DNA of 64,000 bases from Comamonas sp. SCN 65-56. GTDB taxonomy: Bacteria > Pseudomonadota > Gammaproteobacteria > Burkholderiales > Burkholderiaceae_C. The DNA lies in contig NZ_MEDS01000025.1 in assembly GCF_001724135.1 (NCBI RefSeq), forward strand, positions 62,001-126,000. The letters run 5' to 3'. The notes beneath the pieces were generated by a model. That model saw only the letters and a list, made by a program, of their open reading frames with translations. It was not told the DNA's origin and made no database searches. Within the stretch, counting starts at the first letter, position 1; each line of letters starts with the position of its first letter. Shown in pieces: positions 5,568-23,323 of the stretch. Both the position numbers and the translations under genes were made by a program.

Positions 5568-5960
5568 TCAGCCCGCGTCAAACGCCGCCCGCAGCCACTG
5601 CACGCCCGCCGCTTCGATGAGCACCACGTCAAAACGGCAGGGCGGCAGCGGCTTGCAGCGCAGCAGATAGTGGCGCGCGGCAAAGACGATGCGCCGCTGT
5701 TTGCCCGTGCCTATGCTGGCGCCGGCACCGCCAAAATCGGCACGGGTGCGGCTGCGCACCTCGACGAACACCAGCGTGCCATCGCGCTCGCGCATGATGA
5801 GATCGATCTCGCCGCCGCCGCGTCCCGGCGTTCGATAATTGCGTTCGACCACCGCCAGCCCGGCCTCGCGCAGATACGCCAGCGCCGCATCCTCCGCCTG
5901 CTGGCCACGCACGCGGGTGGTTTCTGTTGCACCATCGCGCCTGCCACCAAGGAATCCCAT
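5568..5960 (-). CDS. yraN: YraN family (UPF0102) predicted nuclease-fold protein
   Basis: A 130-residue protein of the UPF0102 family, which has a Holliday-junction-resolvase/restriction-endonuclease-like fold and no firmly established role. Visible family signatures are GQQAEDAALAYLREAGLAVV, the GGGEIDLIMRERDGTLVFVE active-site segment and a late RFDVVLIE strand. Its ATG overlaps the TTG start of divergent rsmI. The yraN-rsmI divergent pair is common in proteobacteria. Confidence 0.9.
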   Translation of the reverse strand: MGFLGGRRDGATETTRVRGQQAEDAALAYLREAGLAVVERNYRTPGRGGGEIDLIMRERDGTLVFVEVRSRTRADFGGAGASIGTGKQRRIVFAARHYLLRCKPLPPCRFDVVLIEAAGVQWLRAAFDAG

Positions 5961-6886
5961 TGAGCGCCTCCTATGTCACCGCACTTGCCGCCGCCCGCGA
6001 TGTGGCGGCTGCGCAGGATTATCCAAAGAGTGCGCTCTACGTCGTCGCCACACCCATCGGCAACTTGGCCGACATCACGCTGCGTGCCCTGCATGTGCTG
6101 GAGCTGGCCGACACCTTGGCCTGCGAGGACACGCGCCATACGCAGCAGCTGCTGCGCGCCTACGGCATCCACAAAAGCCCCGGGCAATGGCTGGCGCTGC
6201 ACCAGCACAACGAGGCCCAGGCAACGCAGGCCGTGCTTGCCCGGCTGGCCGAGGGCCAGCGCGTGGCCTATGTGAGCGATGCCGGCACTCCGGCCGTGAG
6301 CGATCCGGGCGCGCGCCTGGTGGCTGCAGTGCAGCAGGCCGGGCTGCGCTGCCTTCCGTTGCCGGGCGCGAGCAGCGTGGTCAGCGCGCTAAGCTGCGCC
6401 GGTGCCGTCGCGCCGGACGATGCGGCGGCGGGATTTGTCTTTGCCGGTTTTCTGCCGACCAAGGCGGCAGAGCGCAAGGCGGCGCTGGCACGGATCGCGC
6501 AGGAGTCACGCACGGTGGTGCTGCTGGAGGCGCCGCACCGCATCGCCCAGATCGCGCGTGAGCTGGAACCGCTGGGCCAACGCCCCGTGACGCTGGCGCG
6601 GGAGCTGACCAAGCAGTTCGAGGAAATCGCCACCGTGCCGGCCAGCGCCTGCAGTGCCTGGCTGGCCGAGACCGCGCAGCGCAGCCGCGGCGAATTCGCG
6701 ATCGTGATCCATCCCCGGAGCCATGCCGCCAGTGCCGATGCCAACCAGGGCGAAGCAACCTTGCGCCTGCTGCTCGCCGAACTGCCGCTCAAGACCGCCG
6801 TACGGCTGGCGGCCGAGTTGACCGGTGCCAGCCGCAACCAGCTCTACCAGCGCGCGCTGGCGTTGCAAGGCGACGGCAATGATTGA
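5960..6886 (+). CDS. rsmI: 16S rRNA (cytidine-1402-2'-O)-methyltransferase RsmI
   Basis: RsmI methylates the ribose of C1402 in 16S rRNA using SAM. The 308-residue product shows the tetrapyrrole-methylase fold: LYVVATPIGNLADITLRALH near the N-terminus, CEDTRHTQQLLRAYGI, VAYVSDAGTPAVSDPGARLV, LLEAPHRIAQ and VTLARELTKQFEE. I prefer the TTG at 5960, preceded by AAGGA at good spacing, over the track's TTG at 5927; both start codons are TTG, so the exact start is uncertain. It runs convergently into dsbD with 12 bases between. Confidence 0.95.
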   Translation: MSASYVTALAAARDVAAAQDYPKSALYVVATPIGNLADITLRALHVLELADTLACEDTRHTQQLLRAYGIHKSPGQWLALHQHNEAQATQAVLARLAEGQRVAYVSDAGTPAVSDPGARLVAAVQQAGLRCLPLPGASSVVSALSCAGAVAPDDAAAGFVFAGFLPTKAAERKAALARIAQESRTVVLLEAPHRIAQIARELEPLGQRPVTLARELTKQFEEIATVPASACSAWLAETAQRSRGEFAIVIHPRSHAASADANQGEATLRLLLAELPLKTAVRLAAELTGASRNQLYQRALALQGDGND

Positions 6887-6898
6887 TTCAGCGGTGCC

Positions 6899-9067
6899 TC
6901 AAAGCGCCGCCATGGCGTCCCGCAATTCGCGCACCCCGAGGATTTCGCTGAACACCACCGGCTGCCTGCCAGGCGCATAGAGCACATACAGCGGCACGCC
7001 GCTCCTGCCCAGCGATGCCAGCGAGGCGGTGATGGCCGGATCGCGCCGCGTCCAGTCGGCCAGCAGCAGCGCCACCTTTTTGTCCGCAAAATCCTGGCGC
7101 ACACCGGCGTTTGCCAGCGTGGTTTTCTTGTTGTACTGGCAGGTCACGCACCAGGCGGCGGTGTAGTCGACAAACACCGGCTGCCCCTGGGCCAGCAGCT
7201 CGGCCGGCAGCCCGGCGCGCCACGGCTGCCAACCGCCAGCCTGCGCAGACTGCGCCGCCGCAGGCGTGTGCATTTCAATGATTTTCGGGCCCAAAGCGCT
7301 TGCCAGCCATGCGCAAGCCGCTATTGATAAAGAAGCAAAAACCGTACGCGTACGGCCACTCAGCGTGAAGGCCCACACCACCAGCGCCAGCAGCACCAGC
7401 AGCACCAGCAGCGCGCCTGCGCCATCGATGCCGCTTTGCTGGCCCAGTACCCAGACCAGCCACGCCACGGTGGCAAACATGGGAAAGGCCAGCAGCTGGC
7501 GCAGCGTCTGCATCCAGGCGCCGGGCCGCGGCAGCAAGCCTGCCACCGCGGGCCACCAGCTCGCCAGCAGATAGGGCGCCGCCAGACCCAGCCCCAGCAC
7601 GGCAAAAATCGCCAGCGCCTGCACCGCCGGCAGCGCCAGCGTGAGACCAAGCGACGCACCCATGAAAGGCGCGGTGCAAGGGGATGCCACCGCCACCGTC
7701 AGCACGCCGGTGAAAAAGGCATCGGTCACCGGATTCCTGGCCTGCGTCGCCGCCCAGCGCGAAGGCAGCAGCATGCCGACCTCGAACAATCCCGCCAGGT
7801 TCAGGCCAATCAGCGTGAACAAGGCGGCCAGCAAGGCCACCACCAGCGGCGATTGCAACTGAAAGCCCCAGCCCACGGCCTCGCCCGCCGTACGCAGCAT
7901 GAGCATCAACGCCCCCAGCGCCAGGAAGGAGAGCACCACGCCCGCGGTGTAGGCCAGCCCACCCATGCGCTGCGCGCGCAGATTGCCCGCATGCCGCGCA
8001 AAGCCGACGACTTTGACCGCCAGAATCGGAAAAACGCAGGGCATGAGGTTGAGCAGTACCCCCCCAACCAAGGCTCCGACGAGCGCCAGCAGCCAAGCCT
8101 CCAGCGGCGCACGGCCGGGCACTGGAGCTGCTACCGGCGCCGCAGTCTGTGACACGCTCAGGGAGGCAGGCAGCGCCTTGACCGCCGGCCACGCGCCCGC
8201 CACCGGCAGACGCACACGCCAGCCCGTGCCGCCCTGGGCCAGCACCAGATCCATCGCCTCGGGGCTGGCGGCACGCTCGGGCGAGATCGGCACACGTGCC
8301 GTCCAGGTGGCACCGTCCCACTGCTGCACCGGGTCCTTGGCGTTATCCACCACCTCGGGCGTTTCAGGAAAGACCTCGAGCCGCTTGCCCTGCCAGGTCT
8401 GCGGCAGATGCTGCACGCGCAGCACCAGCGCATCCTGCTCCACCTGCGCGCTGCTCTCCCGGGCATTCATGTCGCCCGGGTGTGCCTGCGCGGCCGCGGC
8501 AAAGGCTGCCGCATTGGGCGCCGTCGTGCCCGCCAGCGGCACCTGCAACGTGAAGTTGCCCTCTTCCGGCACGCACTCCATGCGGCACACCAACCAGGCG
8601 GCCTGCAGATGAAACGTGGCTTGCGTCTCTCCCGGCGCTGGCTGGAACATGCTGGAGACCGTGACCGGCACCGGCAACAGCACTTGCCCCTCATAGCCGT
8701 AGTTGGCCAGCGTGCCTATGGGGATCTTGCGTGGCAACGGCCAGGCGATCTCACCTGCGTCCAGGCCAGCCGGAAGCTGCCATTGCAACTGCGTGGGCAG
8801 GCCGGAATCGCCTGGATTGAGCCAGTAGGTGTGCCACTCGGGCTGGTGCGTGAGCAGCAGGCCCAGGGTGAGTGGCTTGCCCGGCGCCACCCCCTCCGGC
8901 GCCTGCGCCACGAGCTCGGCCCGCACATGGTCAGTCGTGACCACGCTGCTGGCAGCGGGCATGGCTGTCTTTTTGAGCTGAAATTGGGCATTTGCGCCCG
9001 TGCACAGGGCGCCAGCAGCTATCAAAAAAAGAAATTGGCGGAAAAATGACGGCAATCGACTGAACAT
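6899..9067 (-). CDS. dsbD: DsbD/ScsB-type thiol:disulfide reductant transporter
   Basis: An inner-membrane protein that carries reducing power from cytoplasmic thioredoxin to the periplasm. From the ATG at 9067 it has 722 residues: a signal peptide ending GANAQ, a periplasmic ScsB-type domain with a CRMEC pair, an eight-helix DsbD-beta core with NLMPCVFPILAVK and ASPCTAPFMGASL, and a C-terminal thioredoxin domain with AAWCVTCQYNKKT. All three cysteine pairs needed for the electron relay are present. The N-terminal WHTYWLNPGDSGLPTQL type is closer to ScsB than to E. coli DsbD. Two copies of the dispersed repeat lie in its reading frame, one over the signal peptide (8970-9036) and one over the last membrane helix (7272-7336). 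It is divergent from a copper-related gene pair. Confidence 0.92.
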   Translation of the reverse strand: MFSRLPSFFRQFLFLIAAGALCTGANAQFQLKKTAMPAASSVVTTDHVRAELVAQAPEGVAPGKPLTLGLLLTHQPEWHTYWLNPGDSGLPTQLQWQLPAGLDAGEIAWPLPRKIPIGTLANYGYEGQVLLPVPVTVSSMFQPAPGETQATFHLQAAWLVCRMECVPEEGNFTLQVPLAGTTAPNAAAFAAAAQAHPGDMNARESSAQVEQDALVLRVQHLPQTWQGKRLEVFPETPEVVDNAKDPVQQWDGATWTARVPISPERAASPEAMDLVLAQGGTGWRVRLPVAGAWPAVKALPASLSVSQTAAPVAAPVPGRAPLEAWLLALVGALVGGVLLNLMPCVFPILAVKVVGFARHAGNLRAQRMGGLAYTAGVVLSFLALGALMLMLRTAGEAVGWGFQLQSPLVVALLAALFTLIGLNLAGLFEVGMLLPSRWAATQARNPVTDAFFTGVLTVAVASPCTAPFMGASLGLTLALPAVQALAIFAVLGLGLAAPYLLASWWPAVAGLLPRPGAWMQTLRQLLAFPMFATVAWLVWVLGQQSGIDGAGALLVLLVLLALVVWAFTLSGRTRTVFASLSIAACAWLASALGPKIIEMHTPAAAQSAQAGGWQPWRAGLPAELLAQGQPVFVDYTAAWCVTCQYNKKTTLANAGVRQDFADKKVALLLADWTRRDPAITASLASLGRSGVPLYVLYAPGRQPVVFSEILGVRELRDAMAAL
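7272..7336 (-). repeat. Dispersed repeat copy A, inside dsbD
   Basis: On the minus strand this reads TCAATAGCGGCTTGCGCATG followed by GCTGGCAAGCGCTTTGGGCC and an AATCATTGAA tail. It matches the same repeat seen after cheZ (35957) and before the oxidase gene (60064). It is translated in frame as SIAACAWLASALGPKIIE, the end of the last membrane helix of DsbD. Confidence 0.8.
8970..9036 (-). repeat. Dispersed repeat copy B, inside the dsbD signal peptide
   Basis: On the minus strand this reads TTTTTTGATAGCTGCTGGCG, then a GCGCCC...GGGCGC inverted core, then a CAATTTCAGCTCAAAA tail in the repeat's usual order. It is translated as LIAAGALCTGANAQFQL, the hydrophobic core and cleavage region of the DsbD signal peptide. 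Confidence 0.75.
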
Positions 9068-9085
9068 GGCGTTACATGGGAGCGG

Positions 9086-9117
9086 GTGCACCGCAATTGG
9101 TTCCGGCTGCGGTGCAC
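9086..9117. promoter_or_regulatory. Inverted repeat between dsbD and the copper gene pair
   Basis: Perfect 10-base arms GTGCACCGCA and TGCGGTGCAC are separated by 12 bases, in the 96-base gap between the divergent dsbD and DUF2946-like genes. It could be an operator for a dimeric regulator or an RNA hairpin in a leader. No known binding site was recognised. Confidence 0.5.
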
Positions 9118-18351: not shown

Positions 18352-19263
18352 TCATGCCTGTGTACCGCCTGCGCCGCGCGCCACTGACAGCGTGCTCTGG
18401 ATGGCGCGACTGAGCTTGCTGGCGTACTGCGGATCGGTCGCGTAGCCGGCCTTCTGCAGTTCGGCCGCATAGGCCTGGGCCGAGCCCGACTTCGCCACCG
18501 CCTGCGCCTTTTCGTAGCGCGGGTTGTCCGTGATGAGTCGCGCGTAGTCGCGAAACGATTCCTCGTAGGAGTCGTAGGCGCGGAACTTCGCCACCACCTT
18601 GCGCGGCTCGCCATCGACATATTCGGTGGTGGTCACCTGCGCCACCTTGCCGGTCCAGCCACCGGTGGCCTTGATGCCGAACAGGTTGTGCGAGTTGCCG
18701 CCGCCCGCCGTCTGGATGGCGCTCCTGCCCCAGCCGGTTTCGTGCCCCGCCTGACCGAGCATGAAGGCGGCGGGAATGCCGCTTTCCTGCGCCACGCGCT
18801 CCGCCGCGGCGCGGTGTTGCTGAACGAAATCGTCACGGCCTTTCGATGGCGCCGTGGGTGCGGCCGTACCGGCAAAGCGGAACGTGCTCTTGCCCAGCGC
18901 TGAAGCCGCGCCGGCCGGTGCGCTGGCGGCCTCGCTGGCGCCCAGCTGACGCGAGAGCTCGCGCTGAATCAGGCCCGCCAGGCCACCGGGCTGGCCTGCC
19001 ATCTGCACCGACATCTGCTGATCGAACAAATCCGTGGCCAGGCCCCCTTCGCCGCCACTGTCGGGATTGAGCTGCTTGGTCGACTCGCGCATGCTCTTGA
19101 GCAACTCGCGCATGAAGAGCGATTCAAGCTGGCGCGAGGCTTCCTTGAGCGCGGCGCGCTGCGCCTGCACATCGCCCTGCGCCGCCTGCAGCTTGAGCGC
19201 ATCCAGGCCGCGGCCATCGGCGGCCAGGCCTGCAGAACCCACGACTGTCGGCGAGAGAGCCAT
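18352..19263 (-). CDS. flgJ: Peptidoglycan hydrolase / rod cap protein FlgJ
   Basis: FlgJ caps the growing rod and locally cuts peptidoglycan. From the ATG at 19263 (303 residues) the N-terminal rod-binding domain shows QLESLFMRELLKSMRES and the C-terminal glucosaminidase-type domain (about 150-300) shows PAAFMLGQAGHETGWGRSAI with the catalytic Glu in HETGW, then NLFGIKATGGWTGKV and FRDYARLITDNPRY. A near-perfect GGAGGTGATT ribosome-binding site precedes the start inside the end of flgI, with the stop and start overlapping by one base. Confidence 0.95.
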   Translation of the reverse strand: MALSPTVVGSAGLAADGRGLDALKLQAAQGDVQAQRAALKEASRQLESLFMRELLKSMRESTKQLNPDSGGEGGLATDLFDQQMSVQMAGQPGGLAGLIQRELSRQLGASEAASAPAGAASALGKSTFRFAGTAAPTAPSKGRDDFVQQHRAAAERVAQESGIPAAFMLGQAGHETGWGRSAIQTAGGGNSHNLFGIKATGGWTGKVAQVTTTEYVDGEPRKVVAKFRAYDSYEESFRDYARLITDNPRYEKAQAVAKSGSAQAYAAELQKAGYATDPQYASKLSRAIQSTLSVARGAGGTQA

Positions 19264-20384
19264 CAAATCACCTCCAGCTCCGCGTTGAGCGCGCCCGCGG
19301 CCTTGATGGCCTGCAGGATGGCCAGCAGGTCTTGCGGCGTGGCACCCAGTGCGTTGAGCGAGCGCACCACGTCCGCCAGCTGCGGCGAGGCTGGCATCTG
19401 CTGCACCTGCCCGCCCTGCTGCTGGATGGTGATCGCGCTTTGCTGCGCCACCACGGTCTGGCCCTGCGACAGCGGGTTGGGCTGGCTGATGACGGGCGTG
19501 CTGCTGATCGTGACCGAGAGGTTGCCGTGCGCGATCGCGCAGGGTCCCAGCGTCACCGCCTGATTGAGCACCACCGAGCCGGTGCGCGCGTTGATGACCA
19601 CCTTGGCAGCGGGCGTGGAATCGGGCAGTTGCAACTCCTCCAGCTCGGCAATGAAGGCGACGCGCGCACCGGGATTCACCGGCGCCTTCACCTGCACCGT
19701 GCGGCCATCGAGCGCCATCGCCGTGCCGGGACCGGAGCGTGCATTGATGGCCAGCGCCACCTTGCGCGCCATCTGGAAATCCGAGGCATTGAGCCCCAGC
19801 GTGATCGTGTCACCATCGTTCAGCGGCGTGGGTACGCTGCGCTCCACCTGCGCACCCTCGGGGATGCGCCCGGCGCTCAAATGGTTGATCTGCACCTTGG
19901 AGCCACCGGCCGACGCACCTGCGCCGCCCACCACCAGGTTGCCCTGCGCCAGCGCGTAGATCTGCCCATCGGCACCGCGCAGCGGCGTGGCAATCAGCGT
20001 GCCGCCGCGCAGCGATTTGGCATTGCCGATGGAAGACACCACCACGTCAATCGCCTGCCCGGGCTGCGCAAAGGCCGGCAGCTCCGCCGTGACCACCACG
20101 GTGGCCACGTTCTTGAGCTGCGGCGCCGTAGTGCCGGGCGGCAGCGAGATGCCCATCTGCTGCAGGTAGTTGGCCATGGCCTGCGCCGTGAACGGCATCT
20201 GCGTGGATTGGTCGCCCGTGCCGTCCAGCCCCACTACCAGGCCATAGCCCGAAAGCTGGTTGCTGCGCACACCCTGCACCGCCGCGATCTCCTTGACCCG
20301 CGCCGCTTGTGCGGGAGCCAGCCACGCCAGCAGCAGCAAGGCCAGCAGCCACGGCAACAAGGAGGATGGTGACAGGGATCTCAT
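19263..20384 (-). CDS. flgI: Flagellar P-ring protein FlgI
   Basis: FlgI forms the periplasmic P ring around the rod. The ATG at 20384 gives 373 residues with a signal peptide (LLPWLLALLLLAWLAPAQAA), the family start ARVKEIAAVQGVRSNQLSGY and GLVVGLDGTGDQST, and ends GALNAELEVI. The track's longer ORF reaches back towards the IS element and is not credible. In many relatives flgI follows flgH directly; here an extra gene and an IS element lie between, so flgI-J-K-L probably depend on a promoter in 20385-20490. Confidence 0.96.
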   Translation of the reverse strand: MRSLSPSSLLPWLLALLLLAWLAPAQAARVKEIAAVQGVRSNQLSGYGLVVGLDGTGDQSTQMPFTAQAMANYLQQMGISLPPGTTAPQLKNVATVVVTAELPAFAQPGQAIDVVVSSIGNAKSLRGGTLIATPLRGADGQIYALAQGNLVVGGAGASAGGSKVQINHLSAGRIPEGAQVERSVPTPLNDGDTITLGLNASDFQMARKVALAINARSGPGTAMALDGRTVQVKAPVNPGARVAFIAELEELQLPDSTPAAKVVINARTGSVVLNQAVTLGPCAIAHGNLSVTISSTPVISQPNPLSQGQTVVAQQSAITIQQQGGQVQQMPASPQLADVVRSLNALGATPQDLLAILQAIKAAGALNAELEVI

Positions 20385-20490
20385 GCGCCCATTGTGGGCA
20401 GCCTGGCGGATTTCTAAAGTGCGAAAAACCAGGCTTTCATCGCGCTGTTGGGCGTTTGAGCGCTGCTTTTGCAGCATTGCAGAGTTTTGA
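20385..20490 (-). promoter_or_regulatory. flgI upstream region with GATTTCTAAAG motif
   Basis: The 106 bases between flgI and the IS target site contain GATTTCTAAAGTGCGA (from 20409 on the plus strand), nearly the same string as upstream of flgB (27784). It lies on the flgI side of the IS, so it stays attached to flgI. I infer a flagellar class II-type control site; no sigma-28 match is seen. Confidence 0.45.
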
Positions 20491-20498
20491 TGAAAAGT
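20491..20498 (+). repeat. Left 8-bp target site duplication of the IS element
   Basis: TGAAAAGT directly precedes the left inverted repeat and occurs again directly after the right inverted repeat (21574-21581). Eight bases is the target duplication size expected for IS1595-family elements. Confidence 0.95.
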
Positions 20499-20525
20499 GG
20501 CTCTTATAGCGGATATTAGTGATGC
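20499..20525 (+). repeat. Left terminal inverted repeat of the IS element
   Basis: Begins GGCTCTTATAGCGGATATTA and pairs with the reverse complement of 21547-21573 (GGCTCTTTTAGCGATTATTG...) with five mismatches in 27 bases. Confidence 0.92.
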
Positions 20526-20596
20526 CTCTTGCTCAGCGCTCTTTTGCCCACACCTTGGGAGTGAGGGCGCGCAAGCGCCCGCTCTGGGAGAAAGCA

Positions 20597-21541
20597 ATGA
20601 GACAGCAGCAGATGGCGCGACTCATGGGTCGCTTGCCTGCGCTCACGCACCATCAGCGCCAGGCGCTCATGCAAGCGCTTGAAGCATTGAGCGCACGCGA
20701 CCTGGCCAGCGCCGTCGCTCAAGCACGCATTGGCGAGCACCCTGCCTGCCCGCACTGTGCCAGCACGCATATCGTCAAAAACGGCTCGGCCAGTGGTCTG
20801 CAGCGCTACAAGTGTCGCCAGTGCCAGCGCACCTTTAATGCGCTCAGCGGCACACCTCTGGCGCACCTGCACCTGCGCGGCAAATGGGCGGCGCATGCCA
20901 GTGCGCTCAGCCAAGGCCTGACATTGAGCCAGGTGGCGCGGCGCCTGCACGTTGCGCAAAGCACCGCCTTTCGCTGGCGCCATCGGTTTCTCTGCTGCGC
21001 CAAGGCGCTGCAGGCCAAGAGCTTGCGCGGCATTGCCGAGGCCGATGAGTCCTACTTTCTCGTCTCCGCCAAGGGGCAAAGGGGGCTGTTGCGCCGGGCG
21101 CGTCGACGCGGGGGCAAGGCCCTTGCTGGCTGCAAGGGCAGCGAATACACCCCGGTGCTCATGGCCCGCGATCGCTCTGGGGCGACAGCCAATCTGATCC
21201 TGGACACGAGCAAGGCGCAGAGCGTGCAAGCGGCTCTCGGGCCGCGACTGGCACGTGACGCCATCTTGTGCACTGATGCAAGCCGCACCTTGGCGTGCGC
21301 CGCCCGGGCCCTTGGTGTTGAACACCGCGCGGTCAACGTCAGCAGGCATGGGCCGGTCAGTGGGCCGTGGCATGTGCAGAACGTCAACGCCTTTGTCAGT
21401 CGCCTGCGTCAGTGGATGGTGCGCTTCAAGGGGGTCTGCACCAAGTACCTCGCTTCTTACCTGGGCTGGTTTCGCGTGCTCGATCGCGCGCCTGCTGGCG
21501 GCGTGCAACCCGCTGCAATGCTGGCTTTGGCGATGGGGTAA
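20597..21541 (+). CDS. IS1595-family transposase
   Basis: A 314-residue DDE-type transposase from the ATG at 20597, preceded by GGGAGA. It has an N-terminal zinc ribbon (CPHC about residue 50 and CRQC about 73), a helix-turn-helix-like region (LTLSQVARRLHVAQSTAFRW), a first catalytic Asp in EADESYF, a second in CTDASR and a C-terminal VNAFVSRLRQWM segment where the third catalytic position falls. Zinc-ribbon plus ISXO2-like catalytic domain is the IS1595 architecture. The longer track start at 20519 overlaps the inverted repeat and is less likely. Confidence 0.9.
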   Translation: MRQQQMARLMGRLPALTHHQRQALMQALEALSARDLASAVAQARIGEHPACPHCASTHIVKNGSASGLQRYKCRQCQRTFNALSGTPLAHLHLRGKWAAHASALSQGLTLSQVARRLHVAQSTAFRWRHRFLCCAKALQAKSLRGIAEADESYFLVSAKGQRGLLRRARRRGGKALAGCKGSEYTPVLMARDRSGATANLILDTSKAQSVQAALGPRLARDAILCTDASRTLACAARALGVEHRAVNVSRHGPVSGPWHVQNVNAFVSRLRQWMVRFKGVCTKYLASYLGWFRVLDRAPAGGVQPAAMLALAMG

Positions 21542-21546
21542 CGGAT

Positions 21547-21573
21547 GCATCATCAATAATCGCTAAAAGAGCC
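21547..21573 (-). repeat. Right terminal inverted repeat of the IS element
   Basis: Plus-strand end ...CGCTAAAAGAGCC; its reverse complement begins GGCTCTTTTAGCGATTATTG, matching the left end. Confidence 0.92.
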
Positions 21574-21581
21574 TGAAAAGT
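21574..21581 (+). repeat. Right 8-bp target site duplication of the IS element
   Basis: TGAAAAGT, identical to 20491-20498. Confidence 0.95.
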
Positions 21582-21627: not shown

Positions 21628-22611
21628 TCACTGTTGCGCTTTGCCTCGCACCGCCTTGGCCGCCTGCACGGGCGCCGCATGGCGCACGCAGTAATACAGC
21701 CCATTGGGCACGCTGGCGATGAAATTCGGGCGCACGCGCGAATCGCCATCCTGCGCCAGCGCGGTGTCGTACAGGCCGCTTTGCACGTGGTACATACCGC
21801 CTTCGCGCAAGGCCACGCCGCCGCCATAAAAGCCCGCCGCCTCGGCCATCTCCAGCTCGGCGGCGGTGGGCAGCACCGCGCCTTGCGTGGCGCAGTAGCG
21901 CACCGCCACCTCGCGCGACACCAGCCGGTCCATATGCCCGGGCGCGGCGGCAATCCACTCGCCCGCACTGGCGGGCCGGCGGTGGGCGGAAAAGCGCGCG
22001 CCCTCAAAATAGTCGAACACCTGCGTGGCCAGCGTCTTGGCCAGCAGGTTCACCGGCACCGTGGCAGAAAAGCTTTGCGAGGCGCCGCTGCGCAGCTTCA
22101 CCAGCGTGAACGTGGCCTGCACCAGGTTGCCATCCAGCCGTGTATAGGTGATGTAGCCCGCCAGCTGCACGCGGTCGATGCGCTTTTTGAGGTCATCGAG
22201 CACCATGGGCCGCTGCAGCTGCTGCGGCGTGATGTCGGCGAAATCAAAATGCAGCTTGGGGTTGGCCATCCCGCGCTGGCGCGCGAGCGCATCAAGCTCG
22301 GCGATCAGCTGCACGTTCAGGCTGCGCCCGAGCTCGTTGAGTGCGCCTTGCTGGGCATGTGCCTGCAGGGTGTCGACCGCCTGCAGAGCGGCGACCAACT
22401 TTTCCGGATCGCCCTTGCCCGCGTGCAGATTGGCAATCGCCTGGCGATCCTGCGCGTATTCGGCGAGGTCGGAGGCGCGCACCACCGCGATGTTGGGCCA
22501 GACGGCAAAGCGCTGCTGCGCCGGATCACGAAAATCCTGCGCGCCTGCACCGACGGTCAGGCTGCAGCACAGCCACAGCAACCACCAGCGCGCCAGAGTC
22601 GCCCACCGCAT
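21628..22611 (-). CDS. Unrecognised exported protein in the flg operon
   Basis: A 327-residue protein from the ATG at 22611 (GAGG five bases upstream; the GTG at 22614 is too close). It has a signal peptide (LARWWLLWLCCSLTVGAGAQ). The middle, about residues 85-200, contains LGRSLNVQLIAELDALARQR and strand-rich text (YITYTRLDGNLVQATFTLVK) resembling periplasmic FlgO/LpoB-like folds. The C-terminal part, about 210-315 (REVAVRYCATQGAVLPTAAE, then PNGLYYCVRH), has two cysteines spaced like a formylglycine-generating/C-type-lectin-like domain. Neither resemblance is firm. It sits 7 bases behind flgH and is very probably cotranscribed with the P- and L-ring genes, suggesting a periplasmic or outer-membrane basal-body accessory. 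Confidence 0.7.
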   Translation of the reverse strand: MRWATLARWWLLWLCCSLTVGAGAQDFRDPAQQRFAVWPNIAVVRASDLAEYAQDRQAIANLHAGKGDPEKLVAALQAVDTLQAHAQQGALNELGRSLNVQLIAELDALARQRGMANPKLHFDFADITPQQLQRPMVLDDLKKRIDRVQLAGYITYTRLDGNLVQATFTLVKLRSGASQSFSATVPVNLLAKTLATQVFDYFEGARFSAHRRPASAGEWIAAAPGHMDRLVSREVAVRYCATQGAVLPTAAELEMAEAAGFYGGGVALREGGMYHVQSGLYDTALAQDGDSRVRPNFIASVPNGLYYCVRHAAPVQAAKAVRGKAQQ

Positions 22612-22618
22612 CACGGCC

Positions 22619-23323
22619 TCAGAAGGGGGTAATGCTGTTGAACGCGCGTGCCAGCCAGCCCATGGCCTGCACCTCGGCCTGCTCGCCCAGACCGCGCGAG
22701 ATCACGCGCACATTGGCCACATACTGCGAATCGATGACGTTGCCGGTGTGCCCGTTGGGGCCGCGGCGCAGATGGCGCGGATCGACGATGCCCGAAAAAC
22801 GCAGCACATCGACGGCGCGGTTCACGCCCACCTGCTTTTCGCCGGTGATGACCAGATTGCCGTTGGGCAGCACCTCGGAGACGATGGCGGTGACGCTGCT
22901 CTTGAACTGGTTGGTGCTGCTGGTATCGCCCTTGCCACTGAAGTCGCTGTCGTAGCCCGCGCCGATGCCGCTGCGCCCGGCAATCTTGCTGACCGCCCCG
23001 GGCGCCAGCAGCGGCAGCGCCGTGATGCTGCCGCTGTTTTTGGAGGTGCGGCCGACGTTGGACTGGCTGTTTTGCTTGGCATCTATGGTTTCGAGGATTT
23101 CGATCGTCACCAGATCGCCGACGAACCGCGCGCGCTGATCCTCCATCACCGGGCGGTAGGTAGCGGAGTTGAAAAGGCTGCCAGAGGCCGGCCCCGTGGC
23201 CTGCGGTGCGGGCGCCAGGCGCGGCGGCTCGGTGGGCAGCACATCCACCGGTGGCGGCGGATTGATGCTGGCACAGCCGGCAGCGAGCAATGCCAGGGCG
23301 CAGGAAAGCAAGCGGACAAGCAT
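22619..23323 (-). CDS. flgH: Flagellar L-ring lipoprotein FlgH
   Basis: FlgH forms the outer-membrane L ring. The 234-residue product has a lipoprotein signal with lipobox LLAAGC (Cys at residue 17), the family core (SLFNSATYRPVMEDQRARFV, then VGDLVTIEI) and the C-terminal NGHTGNVIDSQYVANVRVIS. It follows flgG by 12 bases. Confidence 0.96.
   Translation of the reverse strand: MLVRLLSCALALLAAGCASINPPPPVDVLPTEPPRLAPAPQATGPASGSLFNSATYRPVMEDQRARFVGDLVTIEILETIDAKQNSQSNVGRTSKNSGSITALPLLAPGAVSKIAGRSGIGAGYDSDFSGKGDTSSTNQFKSSVTAIVSEVLPNGNLVITGEKQVGVNRAVDVLRFSGIVDPRHLRRGPNGHTGNVIDSQYVANVRVISRGLGEQAEVQAMGWLARAFNSITPF

Follow-up and report, generated by a model that had tools for sequence, protein, structure and literature searches.

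The analysed sequence (the window) is a stretch of 64,000 nucleotides from Comamonas sp. SCN 65-56. On its minus strand, flgH and flgI flank a gene for a 327-residue exported protein, which we call X, together with an insertion sequence. The features of the locus are the following:

19263-20387, minus strand: flgI, P-ring protein (Pfam FlgI, E 6.8e-137)
20491-20498: left copy of the target-site duplication TGAAAAGT, 8 bp
20499-21573, plus strand: complete IS1595-family element of 1075 bp in the X/flgI interval, with imperfect terminal inverted repeats and an 8-bp target duplication
21574-21581: right copy of the target-site duplication TGAAAAGT, 8 bp
21628-22611, minus strand: gene X, 327-residue exported protein directly behind flgH, in the same slot in 15 genomes
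22537-22611, minus strand: signal peptide of X, residues ~1-25 (..AGAQ/DF), seen in the sequence and as helix 2-21 of the structural model
22619-23323, minus strand: flgH, L-ring lipoprotein (Pfam FlgH, E 1.3e-46)

Gene X and its surroundings

The X reading frame comprises 327 codons and a stop. Its ATG lies 7 bp beyond the end of flgH; a start at the GTG that precedes it by one codon would give 328 codons. TGAGG, which overlaps the flgH stop, is a possible ribosome-binding site (sequence context cttcTGAGGccgtgATG). The sequence-only reading had described an exported 327-residue protein within the P/L-ring gene series, and the reading frame, the signal peptide and the FlgH and FlgI flanks all bear this out. 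The tight spacing to flgH that it also described is there, and only this side is tight, since the complete IS1595-family element, which it had not mentioned, separates X from flgI. The transposase matches NF033547 (E 7.2e-46), and its gene is oriented against the flg operon. The element may affect flgI expression in the window strain.

Homologues of X are present in all nine genomes searched of the window's genus, and its dN/dS was 0.18-0.25 when the window was compared with four genus-mates; X is therefore a real gene, held under purifying selection. This ratio is close to those of FlgH and FlgJ and above those of FlgI and FlgG. Judging from these ratios, X is kept under selection and yet evolves faster, as expected for a peripheral part. 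No Pfam or NCBIfam family reached threshold for X, a tblastn search of plasmids gave no match, and our literature searches found no paper on the gene.

Conservation of the flgH-X order and the wider family

All 15 genomes with a close homologue in the flgH-flgI slot carry X directly behind flgH. They belong to three genera, and nine of them, Comamonas badia included, to that of the window. The flgH-X gap is -1 to 35 bp in 14 of the 15; in the last one (G210) one small exported ORF lies between the two genes (L050, about 5719-6385). The gap between X and flgI is longer, about 100-353 bp where the interval holds nothing else. In the X-negative relatives with both genes in the locus, 21 in number, flgH and flgI are never separated by another gene. 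The place of X beside flgH, whose conservation the sequence-only reading had proposed as a check, is lineage-specific and fixed.

Four lineages show an invasion or rearrangement of the DNA just 3' of X. The IS1595-family element was inserted there in the window strain, RND efflux genes follow X in C. badia and unrelated transport genes in G002, and in G105 flgI and flgK-L have moved elsewhere, away from X. Among the 15 slot genomes we observed no break that parts flgH from X. This bears on the main rival explanation, by which X would be a general envelope protein, for example one for cell-wall or outer-membrane housekeeping, placed in the flg operon for its expression only. We consider this rather unlikely, since the coupling to flgH is strict (15/15) and was kept through the four disruptions. 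However, several observations outside the slot favour it.

Counting strong matches only, 21 of the 401 genomes in a GTDB family sample have X; they belong to seven genera. An automatic tally of 30 genomes takes in short weak matches, and very weak ones in other genera (E about 1e-4 to 1e-2, over short stretches) were left out. A search of genome contigs returned C. badia and one MAG only. Four homologues of about 50% identity, all outside the flgH-flgI slot, come from the genus g145. Three of the g145 assemblies span the interval; there, X is found 11-16 kb downstream of flgI and in the same orientation. A DsbD-family gene of the same orientation follows immediately after X in three of the four, which speaks for the general envelope protein. 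The regions compared are 7147-9381 in L054, 3700-5913 in L057 and 6899-9091 in the window. The window has a matching neighbourhood (dsbD, a creatininase-like gene and a histidine phosphatase) ~12 kb downstream of X, and X is absent from it.

Profile searches revealed a second, distant clade at about 25% identity in the genera g113, g106 and g108. The X tree splits it with full support from the flagellar clade, which consists of the 15 slot members and the four of g145. In g113, 7 of the 16 members adjoin fliJ, the last gene of fliEFGHIJ; of these, six are downstream on the same strand (L089, L090, L092, L093, L095 and L132) and one convergent; the other nine lie elsewhere. Eight of the 17 members in g106 come from genomes without a FlgI match, two of which are at least 92% complete. 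A remote relative in G486 likewise belongs to a genome without FlgI. At L086 (4782-5849), a remote relative without the usual N-terminal motif lies near rplI and dnaB-like genes in a genome with no FlgI match; this gene is possibly truncated or misassembled.

The co-occurrence of the distant homologues with FlgI is not tight, and the X family, taken in full, is not tied to the flagellum. The flagellar clade is therefore best read as a recruitment. The sequence-only reading would have been undermined by homologues lying mostly outside flagellar operons. As 15 of the 19 close ones belong to the flg operon, the reading held up in this part. It fared less well with the distant ones, most of which lie outside flagellar operons and some in genomes without FlgI. 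Such distant members, in many non-flagellar contexts, are what a general envelope protein would lead one to expect, but their presence at a second flagellar locus is not.

Predicted structure and comparison with known families

The structure of X was predicted with AlphaFold from 50 sequences (pLDDT 82.8); this model replaced a poor earlier one that was built from 10 close sequences (pLDDT 57). The following parts of X were distinguished:

22003-22509, minus strand: N-terminal/middle alpha-beta domain, residues ~35-203, predicted to be TolB-N-like, with a WPNIxVxRAxDL motif (AlphaFold, Foldseek)
21682-21963, minus strand: C-terminal domain, residues ~217-310, weakly C-type-lectin/FGE-like, with two cysteines (Pfam, sub-threshold)
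21892-21894, minus strand: codon of C240, invariant in 50/50 homologues
21688-21690, minus strand: codon of C308, invariant in 50/50 homologues
21631-21681, minus strand: basic C-terminal tail, residues 311-327, specific to the flagellar clade (net charge)

The region of the middle domain is mostly at pLDDT 78-95. In Foldseek, the 17 best PDB matches were all TolB (probability 0.94-1.00, E 1.1e-3 to 5e-2), with TM-scores of only 0.21-0.26; these are normalised by the whole X query and are low because only one X domain aligns. The match is supportive, but not proof, of the predicted TolB-N-like fold. A Foldseek search of viral proteins yielded nothing at E<=0.001, and sequence searches of the PDB gave only matches with E>0.1, FGE among them. 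X resembles the TolB N-terminal domain in this predicted fold and in being soluble and periplasmic. It differs from TolB in that it has no beta-propeller and no significant sequence similarity, and its gene lies outside the tol-pal locus.

The middle of X had been described as possibly FlgO/LpoB-like. This stands at the level of the fold only, through the TolB matches of Foldseek, and not by sequence profiles: none of the FlgO, FlgT, LpoB and CsgG profiles of Pfam and NCBIfam matched any of 34 family members at E up to 5. The comparison of X with E. coli LpoB by hhalign gave a probability of 0.6%, with a single sequence on one side, and the single-sequence comparison with TolB was not significant. 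Membership in the FlgO, FlgT, LpoB or CsgG families by sequence was rejected on these grounds. LpoB is, like X, exported, and the weak alignment is in a register that would suit a shared fold class; however, the alignment is insignificant, X has no lipobox and the genomic context is different. Indeed, no lipobox was found in a scan of the window X and all 19 members of the flagellar clade. It is thus very unlikely that X is a true member of the FlgO, FlgT or LpoB family and an H-ring protein by descent, even though the predicted fold class is similar and the gene adjoins that of the L ring.

The two cysteines of the C-terminal domain that the sequence-only reading had pointed out were confirmed, as C240 and C308, and are invariant. 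In C-type-lectin-like domains, a whole-domain disulfide joins the first helix and the last strand. In our model, C240 is within helix 233-242 and C308 on the last strand, 308-310, positions that would suit such a bond; C240 and C308 may form a disulfide in X. The Pfam matches were all short: FGE-sulfatase was hit in 14/34 members and Xlink in 9/34, and these weak matches hint at a C-type-lectin-like fold. Those that we inspected individually cover about 30-65 residues and are below the curated cut-offs; FGE-sulfatase against the window X reached 15.3 bits over 35 residues (cut-off 23.3). X shares with these families an AxxxC..LPTxxEL motif and a closing cysteine in the C-terminal ~95 residues, whereas its domain is much smaller than that of FGE. 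Since the FGE likeness amounts to a short motif below the cut-off, we rejected the reading of X as an FGE-like enzyme.

Each of the 30 proteins from the distant clade (g113, g106 and g108) has a second pair of cysteines, equivalent to positions 50 and 162, and the 19 flagellar-clade proteins all lack it. This distribution suggests that the distant proteins form a second disulfide. The C-terminal tail carries a net charge of +2 to +5 in 19/19 flagellar-clade members, and most distant members are tailless. The basic tail and the absent second cysteine pair set the flagellar clade apart, which argues against a general envelope protein. X points to a two-domain periplasmic family outside the coverage of Pfam and NCBIfam.

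The FlgH insertion and a possible role at the L ring

The FlgH protein encoded next to X has an insertion of its own:

22748-22765, minus strand: insertion of six residues in FlgH (187-192, RGPNGH), restricted to genomes that have X behind flgH

The insertion was seen in FlgH of all 15 slot genomes and was absent from the 24 FlgH proteins compared with them (22 from X-negative relatives and two from g145). The stretch concerned measures 15 residues in the slot genomes and 8-9 in the other 24. In the FlgI tree, the slot genomes form one clade (100/97), and its sister, G013, has neither X nor the insertion; the entry of X into the slot and the FlgH insertion therefore fall on one branch. This co-appearance speaks against a general envelope protein. 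However, it is a single evolutionary event that is not replicated, and it may be a coincidence. The solved structure of the L ring shows FlgH as two beta-barrel layers with an outer chain (PMC8298488). The insertion is a candidate contact site for X, through which X may bind FlgH.

We propose that X is a soluble periplasmic accessory of the L ring, made together with FlgH and drawn from a recruited family, which would act as a collar or as an assembly factor. We regard this as evenly poised between right and wrong. A periplasmic family made of a TolB-N-like domain and a small C-terminal domain closed by a disulfide would have been recruited once into the flgH-flgI slot, in the ancestor of the three carrier genera. 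X would be translated right behind FlgH, exported by Sec and placed at the L ring, where it could form a peripheral collar set between the L ring, the outer membrane and the cell wall; a basal-body or collar component was also what the sequence-only reading had suggested. With its basic tail it could attach to an anionic surface. Alternatively, X could aid L-ring assembly or passage through the outer membrane.

The flgH-X order, the four disruptions that it survived, the FlgH insertion and the second flagellar locus near fliJ all support a role at the L ring. The undivided flgH-flgI pair of the X-negative relatives, the g145 homologues downstream of flgI, the predicted TolB-N-like fold and the dN/dS values count on this side too. 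Against it stand the wider family, which is not flagellum-specific and has members in genomes without FlgI, and the flagellated relatives, most of which manage without X. Accessory parts of this kind do exist, since the H-ring of Vibrio (FlgO, FlgP and FlgT) encircles the L ring and aids passage through the outer membrane (PMC6375700, PMC7990780). Its proteins are exported accessories of the L-ring region, the role we propose for X, and occur in some lineages only; FlgT is also, like X, periplasmic and not a lipoprotein (PMC6375700, PMC7990780). FlgO and FlgP, in contrast, are outer-membrane lipoproteins, and X is not; X also matched no H-ring profile in Pfam or NCBIfam, and its gene has its own place, between flgH and flgI. 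The proposed collar would resemble the H-ring in position and not by descent.

In a more specific form, X would be a structural part of an unseen ring or collar near the outer membrane, docked on the FlgH insertion that arose with it. Such a ring, built from TolB-N-like and lectin-like domains with no descent from FlgO, FlgP or FlgT, would be an independent origin of an H-ring-like structure; we hold this to be possible, though doubtful. X could instead serve FlgH, or the passage through the outer membrane, as a transient chaperone or checkpoint factor, and not be a structural part of the motor. In role this would compare with FlgA, which serves FlgI, or with FlhE. The translation directly behind FlgH and the soluble periplasmic form with no lipid anchor agree with such a factor. 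Nevertheless, we find it unlikely, as the X-negative relatives must all assemble FlgH without X and no similarity of X to FlgA or FlhE was found in the Pfam and NCBIfam scans.

Vibrio, Campylobacter and Helicobacter have well-described outer-membrane accessories of the flagellum, and the literature that we consulted on motor accessories names none for Comamonas-like bacteria. X as an L-ring accessory would be a recruitment on one branch, paired with a change in FlgH as its candidate docking site. Close relatives without X provide natural controls, and C. badia DSM 17552, a sequenced type strain, carries it. The one-branch event, the paired change, these controls and the type strain make the gain of a part by a motor directly testable. 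Several of the X-negative relatives (G016, G023, G025 and G032) have two FlgH genes each and thus probably two flagellar systems.
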